Source: Malus domestica (lineage: Eukaryota; Streptophyta; Magnoliopsida; Rosales; Rosaceae). Taken from it: a DNA stretch of 64,000 nt. Positions 30,135 to 40,921 of the stretch are shown one piece after another (position 1 is the stretch's first letter; each line of letters starts with the position of its first letter). Position numbers and translations under genes: made by a program. Location: the NCBI RefSeq assembly GCF_042453785.1, contig NC_091675.1:7390501-7454500 (forward strand), written 5' to 3'. The notes under the pieces are model-generated. The model worked only from the letters and a program-made list of their open reading frames with translations, was not told the origin of the DNA and made no database searches.

Positions 30135-31200
30135 GGGAGGTTTAAGGGTTTTTGGTGGGGGGAAACAAAAAGGTATTAATATTTAATGGAAGTTAATTAG
30201 GAGGATTTACGTATGCTTTTGTACTGTGTTTTTTGGTAAATACAATTTGCACTGCTAATTTGAGGAACAATGAATAACAATGGCCAAAGAAAAAAAAGAA
30301 AATGCGGCATGAATTTTTTCATACTCTTTTATCCTATTCTTATTTGAAGGCTTATTCTTAATTTGCAATCTATTTGCATTTCTAAGAGGGAGAGAATTGC
30401 TGAAGGCAAAGAGGACAACAGAAAAGGAGCCATTACCTAGTCACAAGTCAATTTTCTTGTTCAGTGATCTTCCGCCGAAATGTTCCAAATAATTCAGTGG
30501 GCAACCACCGAAATTCCAACTTCAGCCCACCGAACACATCCGTAACACAAGGAATTGGCTTTGTTCGGTGAAGGAAAGCAAATAGTGCAACCAAAGTGAG
30601 ATTATAGTGGAAATGAGTTCATTTTATGTTCGAAGTTTTCCTTATTCAGGACTTGCATGTACTGGGTTCACATATGTGGCGGTAACAAAAGGTAAAAAAT
30701 CAATAAAGCAATTTTATTTGAAGAGAGGTTTGCACATGACATTGTATTATTGGTTTGGAACGTCACTGTGACCATAATTAAGAATGTAAAATGGTATCAA
30801 TTGATTTCGATTTAAATGACCTTTCGTTCTAGCATAATTTCCGAACATCTTGTGACATCTTGTGCAAGCATCGCTGTGAAGTAATTTGATTTTCAATTGG
30901 TTGGTACTTTTAAGTGTCTAGTATTTTATCATGTCATTTTAATATCTTAAGAAAGTGTCTTCCAAGACGTCTACTCATTGGGTTTTAAGAGGGCTTCAAC
31001 CATTAACATCAATTTTAAAAGTTCTAAAACTCGTTTGGAAGTATTTTTAAAATTATTAATAACGTTTCTGGTAAAAATACTTTTTATACCAATATTTAGA
31101 AAAAATACAAATTAATCTTGAAAAAACAAAATGCTTCGTGCAAGAAGCAAAAGCAAAGCAACGCTTGAGATGCAGAGGTAGATAATAGTAGTCACAAGGA
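30135..31200. other. Spacer downstream of PRK
   Basis: The first 200 bp are the PRK 3' UTR and end region. The rest is AT-rich with no gene or clear repeat. Confidence 0.5.
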
Positions 31201-31202
31201 AT

Positions 31203-31520
31203 GTCCGTCGTCCGGGATTTGGAGTGCTCGATGCATTGTTTGGTGTTTTAGTTGAGGTTGGAATGCTTGAGGAAGCGAGTGTTTCTTGAGGATGAAGAAT
31301 TTGAGGTTACCAAAGCCAGGGAAGGACGATTTTGTCAAGTTTTTCGAGGATATGCTTGGGTCTGGGATTAATCCATCAGTTTTCATGTACAATATAATGA
31401 TTGGTTATATGTGCAAAGAAGGCGATTTGGATGCTGCTAGTTGCTTGTTTGCACAAATAAAACGGCTGGGCCTTGCACCTGATGTTGTGACATAATTATC
31501 TCATTGATGGATATGCGAAC
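31203..31520 (+). pseudogene. PPR-protein pseudogene fragment
   Basis: Reading frames contain RPGFGVLDALFGVLVEVGML and, in another frame, DFVKFFEDMLGSGINPSVFM then YNIMIGYMCKEGDLDAASCL, which are 35-residue PPR motifs. After LGLAPDVVT the frame hits a stop, although LIDGYAN follows in a shifted frame. Only about three motifs remain of a family that normally has a dozen or more and over 700 residues. The text resembles the At2g02150-type mitochondrial P-class PPR proteins, from memory. It is a truncated, frameshifted relic. Confidence 0.75.
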
Positions 31521-31789
31521 TGAAGCTGGTAAGTGAGCTGTAACAATGGATCTTGAGCCTTCCAATTGACCGTGACCAAGTGCTCCAGCATCCACAATGA
31601 AGCATCATCAAGAACTTATGAAATGTTATTACAAGAGGGTAAGATTTTTACTTCCAATTGACCGTGACAAAGTAATATAAGTAAGGAACAACAAAGTAGC
31701 TGAAGAACTCTGCTCAACAGTGCTATTTTTACTTCCAAGGCATCCTTGATCTGCCAACTGAAAACATTGTTCTTTTTGAAATAATTTCA

Positions 31790-32590
31790 TGGTTAAAACT
31801 CTGGTTTTCCCTGTGTTCCCAAACGTCCAAGTATAAAGGTACTTCTCTGATAAAGGCTAATCTCCATTTCCTGGTCAGTAACTTCAAATGGAAGATCCAA
31901 CTCTCTACCTGCTCGGTCAGACAAGAAGTGATTCACAACACCAGATGACAAAGAGTAAAACTTCATGAGCAACAAACTCTCACTGACCTGTGAATTCTCA
32001 ACGTATCTTCTACCATCAGAAGCGTCACCAACTAAGTCACTCTCAGCGTCAGTGTTGCTCGGATCCTTAAACCGGGGGGAATATCCAAATCGGGTGGCCA
32101 GCTTTAAGGAACTTCCAAATCACTATTCAAATGACAAAAAAGCACAAAAATTACTTGAGAATTTCAAAATCAGGAAAAGTTTGTATCTTTATATGACTAC
32201 AGAAAGAAAGCATTCGCTGCTGCTATAAATTCACGCATGCTTAGAAAAAGAAAAAGCCTAGAATGCCAAACAACATACCCCTCAGGACATGTCTCATTGC
32301 AAAGATTGATGAAACCATCTGTATAAAACGATTTGTCAATATGGGGATATCCTCCAGAGGCAATATGTCCCAAATCTTTAATACTTGAATGTATTTCATC
32401 TCCTTCACAATGTCAATTGAGCAGACAACATATAGACCTTCAACTTCATACTGCCTCAAGATTGCTGATGAGCCTCCACTAATAGTCTGTACATTTTGCT
32501 TCCTTGGTCTCCAGCCACCAGAAAGCTTAAGTAGAAGATTAAGCACCGACTTCAGAAAATTATCCCCGAAAAGTACCCAAAGATAATAGG
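31790..32590 (-). pseudogene. UvrD-like helicase (TPR/ankyrin-helicase type) pseudogene fragment
   Basis: The minus-strand frame at 32241-32546 reads LNLLLKLSGGWRPRKQNVQ, ILRQYEVEGLYVVCSIDIVK and YIQVLKIWDILPLEDIP. The frame at 31793-31975 reads LPFEVTDQEMEISLYQRSTF followed by ILGRLGTQGKPEF. In plant UvrD-like helicases of the TPR/ankyrin-containing family this order leads to a Walker A ILGRSGTGKTT. Here the GTGKT core reads GTQGK, the text stops soon afterwards, and the two blocks are not joined by one frame. It is a broken 5' fragment lacking all later helicase motifs. The family assignment is from memory of conserved text. Confidence 0.65.
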
Positions 32591-33545
32591 TTGGGGGAAC
32601 AGAAAATTATACCAACAAAAGCTTTTGAATTGACTTGCACTGATACTTCAAATTATGACATCCGAAACGATTTTGCTACACTTGGAGCTATGGTCTTTTG
32701 GATTTCTCAAGACATTAAGTTAGAGGACTATGGATATCAAGAGTTTCAACACTTGTTTTCATTTAAGACTTACGATATAGAATTCCTGCAGATCTTACTA
32801 TTTTCCCTCGCTCTCTTATTTTCTAAAATGAGAAACCGTTACTGCCAGTGCACTTATTATAAGTTCACTGGCAGCGGTCCAATTGACGATGATGGGAGGC
32901 ATTCTGCATCTATATCTCTTATGCAAAACTTTTTGATTGCCCAAGGGGTTAGTCCAACTCACAATTGAAAAATCGGTCTACAACTACCTATTGGACAAGC
33001 TAAATATAATGATTGGACCAGCATGGTAATCAAATTTTGCAACTTCAAGGAAGACAGCGCCTGGGATTTCCTAAGATTTAGTCGAATTTTGATGGTCCAC
33101 ACCCGCGACAAGGTATTTTACATGTCTTGTTTGTTGTTGAACTTTAAAATTTTGTTTAATATTTTTCCTTTTTTAGTTGTCTTTGATTGACATTGAACTT
33201 GACGTAGCCTTGAGTCAGGCTTACCCTGGGTTCTTACATGTCATTTTCGAAGTAGTTTTCCAAGTCAAACAATACCCAGTGGAGTTTACGTCAACGTGGA
33301 GTTTCAAGTAAGTTATTAGATTCATGTCATATTCTTATTATTATTTTACATAACTTAGGGAATAGAGTAAAATAAAGGTGGGTTTACTGTTTCTATTGTT
33401 ACAGGGACTTCGCTATCTCAATGGACAGTAATGAATTCGAATTAGCTCCGAGCTGCCCTCCATTTCGGATGGTGAGACGAGTAAAGACTCTCAAGTAAGA
33501 GGATGAAACATTTGGCGAAAGCTTTGAGGACTTGAACGTGTAATC
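32591..33545 (+). pseudogene. Unrecognised multi-exon gene copy forming the left arm of hairpin H1
   Basis: Open text runs from 32591 to 32968 (KAFELTCTDTSNYDIRNDF, LEDYGYQEFQHLFSFKTYDI, YKFTGSGPIDDDGRHSASIS). It continues after a stop as LPIGQAKYNDWTSMVIKFCN up to a donor at 33113. Exon-like blocks follow at 33177-33307 (LSLIDIELDVALSQAYPGFL) and 33405-33510 (DFAISMDSNEFELAPSCPPF). Splice sites are consensus-like (GACAAG|GTATTT, TTTTTAG|TTG, CAA|GTAAGT, GTTACAG|GG), so this derives from a genuine intron-bearing gene, not a retrocopy. In-frame stops mean it is no longer a full gene. I do not recognise the family. Diverged copies are at 33600-34482 (-), 35205-36085 (both strands) and 36225-36545 (+). 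Confidence 0.55.
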
Positions 33546-34482
33546 AGTGTGGTTTAGTTCCAAAATCTTATGCATAAGATTTTCCGGAGCCTATTACAAT
33601 GCATATGATTTTGGAACTAAACCACACTGATTACACGTTCAAGTCCTTAGAGCTTTCGCCAAATGTTTGATCCTCTCCTTGAGAGTCTTCACTCGTCTCA
33701 CCATCCGAAATGGAGGGCAGCTCAGAGCTAATTCGAATTCATTACTGTCCATTGAGATAACGAAATCTCTGTAACAATAGACACAGTACATCACTTTTAC
33801 TTTACTCTATTCCCCAAGTAATATAAAATAATAATAAATAACTAATAATAAGAATATGAGATGAATCTAATAACTTAGTCGAAACTCTACGTTGACATAA
33901 ACTCCACTAATATTGTTTGACTTGGAAAACTAATTCGAAAAGGACATGTAAGAACCCATAGTAAGCCCGACTCAAGGCAACGTCAAGTTCAACGTCAGTT
34001 AAAGATAACTAAAAAAACAAAAGGAAAAATATTAAACAAAATTTAAAAGTTTAAAGTTCAACAACAAACAAGACATGTAAAATACCTCGTCCCGGGTGTG
34101 GACCATCAAAATTCGACTAAATCTTAGGAAATCCCAGGCACTGTCTTCCTTGAAGTTGCAAAATTTGATTACCATGCTGGTCCAATCATTATATTTAGCT
34201 TGTCCAATAGGTAGTTGTAGACCAATTTTTCAATTGTGAGTTGGACTAGCCCCTTGGGCAATCAACACATTGTTCAAAAAGTTTTGCATAAGAGATATAG
34301 ATGGAGAATGCCTCACATCATCGTCAATTAGACCGCTACCAATGAACTTAGAATAAGTCCACTAACAGTAACGGTTTCTTATTTTAGAAAATAAGAGAGT
34401 AGGGAATATAATAAGATTTGCAAGAATTATATATCGTAAGTCTTAAATGAAAACAGGTGTTGAAACTCTTGATATTCATGTA
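32729..34482. repeat. Long inverted repeat H1 (arms ~850 bp, loop ~25 bp)
   Basis: The left arm, 32729-33574, is matched in reverse complement by the right arm, 33600-34482. The centre is sharp: TGTGGTTTAGTTCCAAAATC before the 25-bp loop (33575-33599) and GATTTTGGAACTAAACCACA after it. Similarity stays high throughout both arms and includes both introns of the copied gene, so the duplication was of genomic DNA. There are a few small indels. A transcript through it would fold into a long near-perfect double strand. Confidence 0.92.
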
Positions 34483-34487
34483 ACGGT

Positions 34488-35010
34488 CAATTGGGAAGAA
34501 ACTCTTATTTTATGTATATCTTTTATGAAAAAATATTTGAGAGATATGTGTACCACGCGAAGTTAGTTCCACCAATAATTGGAAAGACAGTTTCAAAAGG
34601 CAATTGGGTTAATAATTAAATTTAGCATATTCAAGGTGGCCATGAGAGTTTCTATGATTCAATAGAATAATGATTATCCATATTCGTGACCAGTTATGTT
34701 TTATGTGCGTTTGAAGTTTTAATAACCATAATTTAAAAACTTAAAACGCACATAAAACATGTAAGCATATCTAGTCATGAGTATGGACGACTATTATTCT
34801 ACCAAATCATAGAAAATCACATGGGTCGATTGCCTTAAATTTGCTAAAATTAATTACTAATGAGTACATTCGTTGTATTTAGGTTCTCTAATCACCTTTT
34901 TCAAACCATCATCTTTCCAATTATGGGTATAACTAACCCACAAGGTACACATTCCTCAAATATTTCTGCATAAAGAATACACATGCAAAATGGTTACCGT
35001 CGTCATTTAT
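34488..35010. repeat. Inverted repeat H2 (arms ~240-270 bp, loop ~10 bp)
   Basis: The left arm (34488-34722) and right arm (34733-35010) pair around a centre of TTTTATGTGCGTTT / AAACGCACATAAAA type. Pairing is weaker than in H1, about 80 percent by eye, and the right arm has an extra ~30-bp block. The outer parts share AAATATTTGAG...TGTGTACC and CCAATAATTGGAAAGA-like blocks. It abuts H1 directly. Just to its right, 35020-35090 repeats part of the H1 right arm (GATGAACTTAGAATAAGTCC). Confidence 0.82.
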
Positions 35011-35145
35011 TGGTTCACCTTCGATGAACTTAGAATAAGTCCACTAACGGCATCTATTTCTAATCTTTGAAAATGAAAGGCCAGGGCTAAAAAGTAAAAC
35101 CCTCCCGACGAGGAGTTAGTTTGCTCCGGCATGATCACAGACGAT

Positions 35146-35199
35146 TTGTCTCATGTAGACACAAATTGTCTCATGTAGACACAAATTGTCTCATGTAGA
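35146..35199. repeat. 20-bp tandem repeat, 2.7 units, at the edge of H3
   Basis: TTGTCTCATGTAGACACAAA occurs at 35146-35165 and 35166-35185, with a partial third copy at 35186-35199 that runs into the H3 left arm. Confidence 0.88.
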
Positions 35200-36085
35200 A
35201 GAGAAGGCAAAATTTGCTATCTGAATATTTCGAATGATTTCATCTTATACAACCCTGACCATGAAACATTTGAACTACCATGCCATGATACTTCAAAATT
35301 TAACATTGATGATGATTTTGATGGATTTAAAACTATAGTTAATTGGATTTCATATCTTGAAGGCATTCATTTAGAGGATATTCATGAGTTTAGTAATCTC
35401 TTTTCCTTAACAACTTACAATGATACAGACTTCCTGTGGGTTTTGATGTTTGCCCCAGTCCTTTCATTTTCTAAAACGAGGAACCGCTTCTCACAATGGA
35501 GTTTTTCAAAGTTCACTGGTACTGGTCCGATAGACAATGATGGGAAGCACTCTGCTTCTGAATCTTTTGTGAAAATGATTTTAAACAACCAAACCACAAT
35601 TGGAAAGTTGCTTTACCTCTTTGGTTATCAAATTCAAGAATTTCAAGGACGACAAAGGTAAAGCAACTTTCCAATTGTGGTTTGGTTGTTTAAAATCATT
35701 TTCACAAAAGATTCAGAAGCAGAGTGCTTTCCATCATTGTCTATCGGACCGCTAACAGTGAACTTTGAAAAACTCTATCGTGAGAAGCGGTTCCTCATTT
35801 TAGAAAATGAAAGGATTTGGCAAACATCAAAACCCATAGGAAGATTGTATCATTGTAAGTCTTTATTACTGAACTCATGAAAATCCTCTAAATGAATGCC
35901 TTCAAGATATGAAATCCAATCAAACATAGTTTTAAGTCCATCAAAATCATCTTCAATGTTAAATTTTGAAGTATCATGGCATGACAGTTCAAATGCTTCA
36001 TGTTCAGGGTTGTATAAGATGAAATCAATCAAAATATTCAGATAGCAAACTTTGTCTTCTCTTCTACATGAGACAATTTGTGTCA
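35178..36085. repeat. Long inverted repeat H3 (arms ~440 bp, loop 37 bp)
   Basis: The left arm 35178-35618 pairs with the right arm 35656-36085. The innermost ~75 bp (through AGGTAAAGCAACTTTCCAAT) are identical and the whole is about 93 percent alike by eye. Both arms carry the same paralogous coding text: left arm FELPCHDTSKFNIDDDFDGF and FTGTGPIDNDGKHSASESFV; right arm FELSCHDTSKFNIEDDFDGL on the other strand. The text is homologous to H1, so H1 and H3 arose from related gene copies. Confidence 0.92.
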
Positions 36086-36224
36086 ACATGCCCCTATAAA
36101 AATAAAAAAAATAATTCACAATTTACACAAAATTACACATAACAAACCAACCATGAAACAGTGAAAATGATTACCTAAGTATGGATTTAATAAGATACTT
36201 TCCATTGTGGTTAAACCTCATGTC

Positions 36225-36545
36225 CAACACGCAAGGAGTTTTGAGTAAAACAGCATCCGTTGGAGTTTACGAAGACGTTGAGTTTTGAGTAAGTAAATTA
36301 ATGTCATATTCTTATTATTAATTATTTATTAGAATTTTATATTGGAAAACAGAATAAAATAAAAGTGGGTGTACTGTTTTTATTGTTACAGGACTATGCT
36401 CTCTAAATGGATAGTGATGAATTTGAATTAGCTCTGACCTGCCCTCCATTTCAACTGATGACAATGAAGACTCCTAAGGAAGAGGATCAACCTTTTGGCG
36501 AAATCTATGAGGGACCACGACACAAGAAGAACATATACAAAGGAA
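36225..36545 (+). pseudogene. Third copy of the 3' part of the hairpin-forming gene
   Basis: It matches 33270-33550: GGAGTTTACG-like exon end, a GTAAGT donor near 36291, an intron with ATGTCATATTCTTATTATTA, a TTGTTACAG acceptor near 36392, then MDSDEFELALTCPPFQ-like text after ATGGATAGTGATGAATTTGA. It is a direct, uninverted copy. Frames are interrupted, so it is a relic. Confidence 0.6.
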
Positions 36546-39500
36546 TTTTGATGCATATTTTGTGACTTTATCACAGACAATTGCTTTAGTATAAATGTTG
36601 TGGACTATTTGGTTACTAAGAAATTAGAATTAGAATTTCTTTTTTTATGTTTGTTATTATCGGCTTGGCTTGTTGGATGTTTTATGCCTTTGTTTTTTCT
36701 GTGTTATGTTTCACAATTGTTGACACTTCTCCACCTACAATTCAGGAGCTAAACGTTGAGAGCAAAATATATTCCCCAAGCAGTACCATATTCAGTAAAT
36801 TTGTTATTATGGCATCATATAATTAAATCTTAGATTCAAAATTTTCTAACTATGGTACTCCCTTGAACAAAAATATTTGATAAGTATGAACTTATCAGGT
36901 CCAAAATCTTCAACCTGTTAATATGGCATCATATGCAGGAGAGGAACTCCTATAATATCTGTTTGTTATTTGCCAGAGTACAATTTTCCAGATTGAATAT
37001 ATTAAAACACACAAGTAAAAGTAAAACTGAAAACTGGGTTCATGAGAATAAAACAAAACCTAATACCATCAAAGATTTAACCGTAAGAAACCCCCAGCAT
37101 TCCCAATGATTAGAAAAATCGAATTTGATAACATTGTACCTTTTTTTTATTTTTTATTTAACGGTAAAAGGGAATTCATTTCACAACAAACCAAAACATA
37201 GAAGTTACAAGCCAATTGCAATCATATGAGAAATTGGTATCTCTATAACAATGTAATATTTGAACTCCAATTATCGAAATCCAACTAACAAATACACTAA
37301 TATCTGTACACAAATAAAATAACCCAATAATTTAGCAAGAATGAAAAGGAAGTAATATGAACAGAGAGAGATGTATAAAGACCCAACCCCTGGCATGAAA
37401 CTAAATCCCACGCCTACTCAAAAGACACAAAGCAGAAAATTACTCAATTTCAAAATCCAAATGAGAAAATAAAACCTCACCGTTTCTCTCGCTCACCTCG
37501 TCATCTCACATATCTTCTCTTCATATTCTGATAAAAGACCTCTCTTCAAGTCTGGTCTCAAATGGTTAGTCCATCTCAGCCTGCAACTTTTCCACACCTT
37601 TAATAATCCTGCAATTCAAACCAACCCACCACATCTATAATCAGTGAACTGTTGACATTAAAACATATGAAATTACAACCCATTTGATAGAAAGATTTTG
37701 TTGTTTTAACAGAAACACCGAAAAATGAACATTTCACAGCGAATAACTAATTTTTCATTATTTAAAAATTAGTCATCAAATTTCATAAATAAATAAATCC
37801 AAAAGAATGCAAAAAATTGGAACCTTTGGGCTTGGAGAGCGAGACACTGGACTCGGTGGGTGTTGGCGTTGAGGAGGAGATCTGAGTTAGTGACTGAGTC
37901 GTCAGTGATCCATACTCCTCACCCTCCCTCCCTCTCTCTGTCGCTCTATCTCCTCACCCTCTCTCCCTCTATCTCTATCTCTATCTCTATCTCTGTCTCT
38001 ATCTGTATCTCATCAAAGCGGCATAGCTTATATAAAAAGCCAAAATATAAAATGAAGTAAGTACTGGTCATTTCTGATTGACTATGATAAAGAAATCTAG
38101 TTAACCATTTGAGTTTTGTACAAATATGATAAAGAGATCATATTTAATATATATTAGTAATTAAGAAAATTTAGAGCAATGAATGGGTATATATTAACTG
38201 TTTTGCAGCGATGCAATATGGTTTTAGATGCTTGGGGAATCTGTTATATTTTTTGTTGGAGCCTTTGGAGTAAAAGTTGTGTCTCATATTTCCTTTGCAG
38301 CAACATCACCTGTATAAATATAAAATAGAGGAAAATGAAAAGTGTTAGTAAACATTGAGTGGTGTGGTACTTCGAAGTGTTAGTAAACATTGAGTAGTGT
38401 GGAACTTTGAACCACGGAAAACATATGAATTTGATACAAATGTTTGTGAGATGAATGAACTTGAGATGAAGATATACATGTTATATTTTGGGACCCGTAA
38501 GTGTTTCCGAAATTGCTTGGGGTTGCTTTGGTTTTCAGAGAAATCATCGGGGGCATTGTCGGAAACCGAGTCAGAAGCTGATGCCCTTTTCTATGGAGGC
38601 TTTCCAGTGGGAGTTGTGGCATCACACAGATGTAAAACAGAGGAAAAATAAAGGCATTAGTGAACATTGGCTAATGTGGAGATCAAAATTAAACGCATTA
38701 GATAAATGCATAATACATTGTTAGAGGAGAATGTTTCAGTGATTGAACTTGAGGAAAATTAATGCAATTTAAACTACAATGATTTCACTTACAAATTTTC
38801 AAAATCATTAGGCACTCTCTTCAGAGGACCAAACGATAGATATTGACGTTTCTAATCCAGGAAAAAAGAAACGAACATAAACAAACAGCGCAAACTCGTC
38901 AACCAATATGATAGGCCGATTGCACGATACAGAAGAAACTGAATGGAGATTTTATTGTTCAAAGTCCAAATTCTATAAAACAAATCCTAATTAACAACCA
39001 ACTAATAATGGATCATTGAAATTAAAAGAACAACATAAGGACGGGAGAGAGAGTAATGCAAGATTAAATAATTGTATTAGATATAACTCTACCATCCAAA
39101 CATTTATCACTACAATTTACAATAAATCAAACTCCCAATATAGCTATCAAAGTATAAAAAATAAAAATAAAAACGTTAGCAACACCTGATGAATCCACTG
39201 GAAAGCATGGTAGAGGAGAGAGAAGAATTGATCGTTTCACCATCTGGCAGTAACCCATTTCACAAAACAAATTACTTTCACAAACCCGCTTTGCAGCAAA
39301 AATAAAGAAAAAACAAACACTTAGTATGTCTTATGACTTTAATTCCAATTGCCTCTTCAAGCTCCCTAGCTTTTGAACCATCATGCTTATATTCATAAAG
39401 CCCTAACCATGAAACCAAAATTACTACCTTGACAAATAAACATAACCAACAACAAAAACAACTAAAATTTTCAAATGGGCACTGCCAAAAATTACCAGCC

Positions 39501-40340
39501 GAGTTACTGAAGACAGTGATATCAGGTCCGAAAACTAATTTCCACTATTCCAACGAAGATCCAACAGGGTCCCAAAGCGTCAAGGAATAAGGTGCAATGA
39601 TAGTATTATCCTTGTCGAACACCCTATCTATGTAATTCAGGCCAATCAATGTACCTAATATGCACATCTATTGCCTTTGATTTTATCCTTTTTGAATCTG
39701 AAAAGGAGTATGCAGTAAACTGAATTCTTTTAAGAATTGTATCCTTTTCAATAATTTCAACATAAATCCCCAAAATCACAAAAATGAAATTTCAACAGAA
39801 AACCCATTTAGAAAGGAAATTTACACATCTACACACATAATATTTAAACCACAAAAATACCCACCCCAAATCAGCTGAAGAACTCAGCGGTAAACGCTAC
39901 CTTTTCAGGGCCAAAACTCTAAATTGCGTACCTTGAGTAGAGAGAGCTTCAGAAAACGACGCCGTTGGAGAACCAGCCCTTGATGCGGCTGCGGCACATG
40001 TGGCGGTTCAATTTCGCCTGATTCACAATACAAAAAGGGTGTAAATACACCAATGAAACAACTTTTATCAGTAAGATTAAGACTAAAATTGCTGTATTTT
40101 AACATATCACGTACAACATGAAAATCACACACAATATTTTGTATGATTAACTACAATCAATTACTATTTCTTAATTTTGAATCCAGTAACTCTAGAACTT
40201 CAATTAAAACTAAACTCTGAGATCCAAATATCATCAAAATTCATCAAAACCAAAATTTTAAGCAAATTAAACAAAAACCCAAATCTTTATTCAGCAAAAT
40301 CCCCTAAAAAATTTCCAAAATCGAAAACTTTTAGAAAATT
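36546..40340. other. Long spacer without a supported gene
   Basis: The stretch is AT-rich with scattered splice-like signals. On the minus strand at about 38035 a TTTATATAAGC box precedes a GA-rich leader-like run and a TATGGATCACTGA that opens only a 3-codon frame. A downstream acceptor (TTGCAG near 37610) leads into [13 protein letters not shown] and a stop. This could be a small decayed or non-coding transcript, but I cannot support a CDS. Other frames here look random. Confidence 0.4.
37926..38010. repeat. CT/ATCTCT microsatellite
   Basis: Runs of TCTCTC and then repeated TATCTC hexamers (37970-38010) form a polypyrimidine tract; on the minus strand this is a GA-rich leader-like run. Confidence 0.8.
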
Positions 40341-40355
40341 AAAGCAAAACCCACT

Positions 40356-40448
40356 AACCTTTGTAGCTACATTCCTGAGAAGCACAACTATAATATGCCT
40401 GGTGGAGTCATCAGCTTTCACCAGCAACACTCGCATGTTCATCATCGG
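40356..40448 (-). pseudogene. Exon relic of a pseudo-response regulator (PRR) receiver domain
   Basis: Minus-strand text reads LLPMMNMRVLLVKADDSTRH followed by IIVVLLRNVATK and then a GTTAGT donor. PRR7/PRR3-type clock proteins have FLP...VLLVENDDSTRHVV.ALLRNCSYE at the start of the receiver domain, with an intron close to the same place. An in-frame stop lies just upstream and no further PRR exons are found nearby, so this is an isolated fragment. The identification rests on about 30 residues. Confidence 0.5.
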
Positions 40449-40921
40449 CAGTAGCTTCTACCACCGCATCGTCCCGACAGAAGAATCGCATTTGCTGCCG
40501 TTCTTCTCCGGAGAAAACAGAGAGCCACAATGTTTCAGTGAAGCTGGAGAGTTTGGAAAATCTCTCAATATCTTCTTCTCATCCTGATATTAGCCCTTGG
40601 ATCTCGTTGGAGTTGACAGAAATCAACGAAGCCCTGTGCGATTTCATCGTTGTGAGCTGTGAGAGAGAATACGATGGTCACATCACGATTTTATCACCTA
40701 AAGGTCATGGGATCTGGGGAGGAAGAGAAAGAGAGTGATGAAGAGCATGGGATCTGGGGAGGAAGAGAATGGTAAAGTGACGATCGCACCCTGCCTTTCC
40801 ACGATCATCAACACGCGGGCATTATGATCAACGGCAGAGAGAGTCAGTGACAGCCTCGTAAATAAAATGAAATTACTGTTTATTTCTACAGTGCCATTTC
40901 CCATGCTTTCCTTAGACAAGG

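Follow-up and report, generated by a model that had tools for sequence, protein, structure and literature searches.

Inverted gene duplications are already known as a source of plant siRNAs, the comparison cases being single or unrelated loci. According to the excerpted text of PMC13213937, the VIM4-VIM2 and PAI loci of Arabidopsis Cvi are gene-family members naturally arranged as inverted repeats, which yield siRNAs and have silenced homologues. For maize, the available passages of PMC11390486 describe Teosinte Pollen Drive, with the hairpin Tpd1, its processed 22-nt siRNAs, and its target Tdr1, together with 28 pollen hairpin loci, one precursor measuring 4,480 bp. The Drosophila hairpin RNAs Nmy and Tmy act against the Dox family (excerpts of PMC10292708 and PMC10317233), and gene conversion is reported, in the part of the source at hand, for palindromes of the willow W chromosome (PMC7023750).

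The locus described here lies in a window of 64,000 nucleotides from Malus domestica (the whole stretch analyzed, C15:7390501-7454500; w denotes window coordinates), within an assembly of 651 Mb in 19 contigs. It comprises three adjoining palindromes, H1, H2, and H3, formed from one uncharacterized gene family, here called family A (Table 1). Another long natural hairpin, apple MdhpRNA277, reportedly silences resistance genes and probably belongs to the same genus. The window locus and the VIM4-VIM2 and PAI loci are alike in being natural inverted repeats of gene-family members, and the window palindromes resemble Tpd1 and the maize pollen hairpins in being long natural hairpins; siRNAs and silenced homologues, or processed 22-nt siRNAs and a target, have been shown in those systems, whereas at the apple locus siRNAs and a target are putative and the arms are broken genes. 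Repeated conversion of one gene family to hairpins is a feature of family A that is not seen for the maize hairpins in the passages available (PMC11390486). Nmy and Tmy, as excerpted, likewise are related hairpin loci from one fast-evolving gene family, but they belong to an animal system with living target genes, whereas no target was found for family A. The willow case, in the portion of the report at hand, shares with family A consecutive plant palindromes and signs of arm gene conversion; it differs in extent (200 kb in total as opposed to 0.9-3.4 kb), in its location on a sex chromosome, and in its expressed genes, family A having broken genes and no known sex linkage. Among the listed matches in the open-licence literature, which are weak evidence on this point, there was no report of family A or of a palindrome-only plant gene family. 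A family with all its detectable members inside palindromes or next to them, and with several origins, would allow tests of whether hairpins were favored, of how palindromes persist in plants, and of what the lost target was.

Table 1. Features of the family A locus, its copy on C16, and related palindromes (window coordinates unless a contig is given)
Feature	Position	Strand	Remarks
Duplicated block	31194..40769	+	Aligns in four pieces with its copy, C16:591458-601504
Family-A 5' piece	32619..32729	+	Just beyond the H1 palindrome; resembles H3 arm
H1 left arm	32730..33575	+	Family-A gene copy, sense, with introns and stops
H1 apex spacer	33576..33598		23 nt
H1 right arm	33599..34479	-	Left arm copied inverted
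H2	34507..34991		Weaker, older-looking palindrome; core 34609-34860
Junction	35160..35172		C16 copy has 574 extra bases (137 + 437), the H3 outer left arm
H3 left arm	35172..35625	+	Contains 160-codon open frame 35179-35658
H3 apex spacer	35626..35648		23 nt
H3 right arm	35649..36090	-	Inverted copy
Family-A 3' piece	36233..36512	+	Resembles w33250-33529; C16 counterpart is part of H3 outer right arm
H3, C16 version	C16:595524-597466		94%; longer than in the window
H4	C16:610783-613728		H1-gene palindrome
H5	C16:613722-616876		Palindrome of cyclophilin-like fragment; 3.2 kb, 78%
P52	C15:52227387-52230734		Palindrome; 3.3 kb, 87%
P52b	C15:52043801-52046731		Palindrome; 83% over the 1.95 kb examined; matched by P52-member query
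P8	C15:8119965-8123388		Palindrome; 3.4 kb, 83%

Aligned with their own reverse complements, H1 was 88% identical over 1796 columns (arms of 846 and 881 bp) and H3 89% identical over 932 columns (arms of 454 and 442 bp), while H2 showed 74% identity in its core and 80% in its outer pieces (34507-34587/34912-34991), its right half being similar to H1 in the minus direction. The longest run of exact duplex was 83 bases in H1, 74 in H3, and 17 in H2. Folding was far stronger than in shuffled sequences: -660 kcal/mol for H3 versus a mean of -194 (sd 8.3) for 20 dinucleotide shuffles (z -56), -1279 for H1 versus -372 to -386 (5 mononucleotide shuffles), and -171 for H2 versus -73 to -88 (5 shuffles). 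By sequence and by folding, the locus thus has the long near-complementary arms and short spacer of a hairpin-RNA locus. Self-alignment and folding against shuffles bear out the original prediction of three adjoining inverted repeats, H2 the weaker, and of a single gene family that was inversely duplicated more than once and could give double-stranded RNA of great length. The 75 identical inner bases proposed for H3 hold to within one base; for its loop, proposed as 37 bp, self-alignment gives a spacer of 23 nt. With a search for repeats of at least 200 columns with partners within 20 kb, the window had no inverted repeat beyond w32619-36512. H1, H3, H4, and H5 were the only palindromes with arms of more than 400 bp in the window and C16:550-650 kb, and none was present in 17 kb at two further loci, including C15:52.2096 Mb.

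The arms of H1 and H3 are paralogous, as proposed, with 68-69% identity in DNA and 48% in the protein pieces, and dN/dS between them was 0.50-0.52 at a dS of 0.64-0.68. Read by eye, GT-AG introns separate the family-A coding pieces, indicating that a gene with introns was copied at the DNA level; stops interrupt the reading frames. The family-A pieces tested matched no Pfam family, Nup54_57_C for the 8.12-Mb piece being at chance level (E 0.73), and a search of solved structures returned nothing better than E 0.73. An AlphaFold model from three aligned window sequences had a mean pLDDT of 39.8, too low to use.

A block including the whole locus is duplicated on C16, with 96-99% identity by part, gaps left out. 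Outside the block, C16:550-650 kb shows only short matches (151-438 columns); with this and the 96-99% identity, whole-genome duplication is unsupported as the source. H1 to H3 recur in the C16 copy with the same arm-specific differences. The C16 version of H3 has its arms ordered 3'-part(-), 5'-part(+) / 5'-part(-), 3'-part(+), and the 3' piece at the right edge of the locus is without a partner in the window because the 574 bases at the junction are present in the C16 copy only.

The H4 palindrome, 13 kb further along C16, has its apex region in common with H1 and is abutted by H5. The latter gave a Pro_isomerase match in Pfam (E 0.0012) of 19.5 bits, under the curated 21.7, while a single, nonpalindromic cyclophilin-like copy at C15:52.2227 Mb scored 30.6 bits, over that value. 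Since H5 is cyclophilin-like, palindromes were made from more than family A. At the start of the H4 outer arms is an exon similar to exon 1 of a different gene, which lies at C15:52.2096 Mb; the cyclophilin-like copy, P52, and this exon match hint at an old segment common to C15:52.2 and C16:0.61 Mb. Further along, at C16:618850-620570, two inverted arms of 0.53 kb (85%) flank 655 bp, with a small palindrome inside; this is perhaps a transposon.

Genome-wide, the searches score the best candidates only, and far-diverged single members could be missed. With the H3-type protein query, all 15 matches lay inside H1-H4 or at palindrome edges; with the H1/H3 exon query (E up to 10), 30 of 31 were in palindromes or at their edges, the remaining one, on C10, being at chance level (E 0.12) and without a palindrome in the 2.5 kb examined. 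Two places weakly matched by the exon query, C15:52.229 Mb (E 5.7e-5 and 0.0014) and C15:8.1227 Mb (0.032), led to distant relatives at C15:52.23 and, more weakly, 8.12 Mb, and the P52-member query added one at C15:52.05 Mb; these have about 30% identity and are all long palindromes. Every match to the P52-member query (21/21) was in a palindrome, and the P8-member query matched P8 six times and H1 once (E 0.36). P8 aligns with family A across the same intron (E 9e-08, for a search space of 3.5 kb only) and is the least certain relative, its kinship being drawn from weak matches. P52, P52b, and P8 were located by protein match, not by structure, and all three are palindromic; as P52 and P52b are siblings, this amounts to at most two independent cases. 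No palindrome is formed by the non-family genes near the distant relatives, namely the cyclophilin at C15:52.2227 Mb and the C15:52.2096-Mb exon.

Family A is palindromic at five places besides the window (the C16 copy, C16:0.61, C15:52.23, C15:52.05, and, less certainly as to kinship, C15:8.12 Mb), so that the repetition originally proposed stands while its confinement to one site does not. Exceptions to palindromic location are the 5' piece just outside H1, the 3' piece that is partnerless in the window, and a 59-bp piece at C16:595440, between H2 and H3. A fourth, at C15:8113753-8114279, 6 kb from P8, is a single-orientation 527-bp relative of the outer part of P8. Neither a separate family-A member (H3-arm and H1-arm DNA searches and protein searches) nor a homologous target gene for the hairpin was found among the best-scoring candidates, and the suggestion that siRNAs act on surviving members of the family was not upheld within that scope.

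In H1 and H4 the apex is at the gene's 3' end; in P52 and P52b it follows an exon ending in an HT-D motif (by eye, H2 has it about there), in H3 it falls within the gene, and in P8, arranged head-to-head, it is 5' of the core. Because these positions differ, about three or more separate palindrome origins are likely, unless rearrangement shifted an apex. In P52 and P52b, 30 bases spanning the asymmetric spacer are identical and run in the same direction, suggesting copying of one palindrome. In this pair, 15 informative columns group the arms within each palindrome versus 2 and 2 (tree support 99/98), and in H1/H4 the figures are 15 versus 2 and 4 (tree support 90/93). These patterns suggest gene conversion between the arms in both sibling pairs; alternatively, there may have been independent fold-back at the same spot, the spacer perhaps being plain gene sequence. 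Since the C15/C16 duplication, no sign of arm conversion was found in 761 (H1) and 449 (H3) gap-free columns, of which 55 showed an arm difference common to the two copies, 1 was conversion- or compensation-like, 1 crossed, and 1 complex.

Together, the palindromes, their strong folding, the location of nearly all protein matches inside or at the edges of palindromes, the protein-led finding of further palindromes, the differing apices, and the site patterns of arm exchange support a family-A cluster produced by repeated inverted duplication, for which we propose that hairpin RNA is formed and processed to siRNAs, with a probability of about 0.5. Also supporting this explanation, transcribed natural inverted gene repeats yield plant siRNAs in the excerpted reports (PMC13213937, PMC11390486). 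Short inverted repeats would prompt the fold-back copying that makes the palindromes, the arms would at times exchange sequence through gene conversion, and they would otherwise decay, pairing not being under selection. Read-through transcription of each would give a hairpin RNA of 0.9-3.4 kb, to be cut by Dicer-like enzymes into 21-24-nt siRNAs that act, or formerly acted, to silence family-A genes no longer present in this assembly. If transcribed, the window locus is probably a hairpin-siRNA locus, and family A may now act through double-stranded RNA rather than protein. A more far-reaching version, which we consider unlikely, would make family A a hairpin-RNA gene family with the palindrome as its kept working form. 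A fast-evolving and perhaps selfish gene would have given rise to it several times, and occasional gene conversion between arms would have preserved its folding. It would be a plant counterpart of Nmy/Tmy-Dox in which the silenced genes are gone from the assembly and the silencers remain.

The proposed hairpin-siRNA function is weakened by pair-breaking changes, the lack of a target among the candidates, the lack of a clear methylation footprint, and the weak kinship of P8. Single changes that followed the C15/C16 duplication numbered 69 (43 in H1 and 26 in H3), 49 breaking a pair and 20 yielding G-U. Transitions made up 46 of the 69 and, half of them giving G-U by chance, about 23 G-U would be expected without selection. 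Compensatory changes between C15 and C16 amounted to at most one candidate column in H3 and none in H1. Selection for pairing since the duplication is not seen. Comparing the C15 and C16 copies, dN/dS of the H3 arms was 1.14 and 1.0 (0.6-1.14 over all H3 comparisons), and at 52 Mb it was 0.25-0.98 for the core and e3 exons, undefined where dS = 0. Recent conservation is clear neither for pairing nor for protein. No methylation-type footprint was clear, with C>T at 3/38 CG, 7/53 CHG, and 22/333 CHH sites.

Such decay would also fit inert pseudogene palindromes, fold-back copying having repeatedly hit a dead or dying gene family and left untranscribed, functionless products. This account keeps a considerable, if below-even, probability: besides the missing selection for pairing and the dN/dS near 1 among the H3 arms, it accommodates the stops in the family-A frames and the palindromic state of the neighboring cyclophilin-like fragment, a sign of a process wider than family A. 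It leaves unexplained, however, why the relatives found by protein are palindromic when nearby non-family genes are not. Several palindromic copies at dispersed sites might also suggest a foldback-type transposon family with long inverted ends carrying family-A sequence, but this is improbable, as seven palindromes read by eye lack shared ends or obvious target-site duplications, the copies are few with differing apex positions, and the C16 copy arrived as a 10-kb block including flanking sequence. Still less probable are young MIRNA genes at the palindrome centers: Rfam miRNA matches occur at the centers of H1, H2, and H3, but none of the 12 Rfam matches listed for w30000-38000, 11 of them to miRNAs at palindrome centers, reaches its gathering score, and they are to unrelated families, including animal ones, on both strands, as expected from hairpin shape alone. 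False inverted duplications do occur in genome assemblies, yet with arms that differ by 7-12% and 55 arm-difference columns common to the C15 and C16 copies, the assembly artefact that the original prediction had allowed for is ruled out for practical purposes.

As for the surroundings of the locus, H1 is adjoined on the minus strand by open frames (w31796-32606) without a Pfam match, which we take to resemble a plant helicase-type gene fragment. Elsewhere in the window, w15102-16669 and w19471-21595 hold two similar tandem genes, the second matching DUF3537 and the first recognized by eye from frames only.
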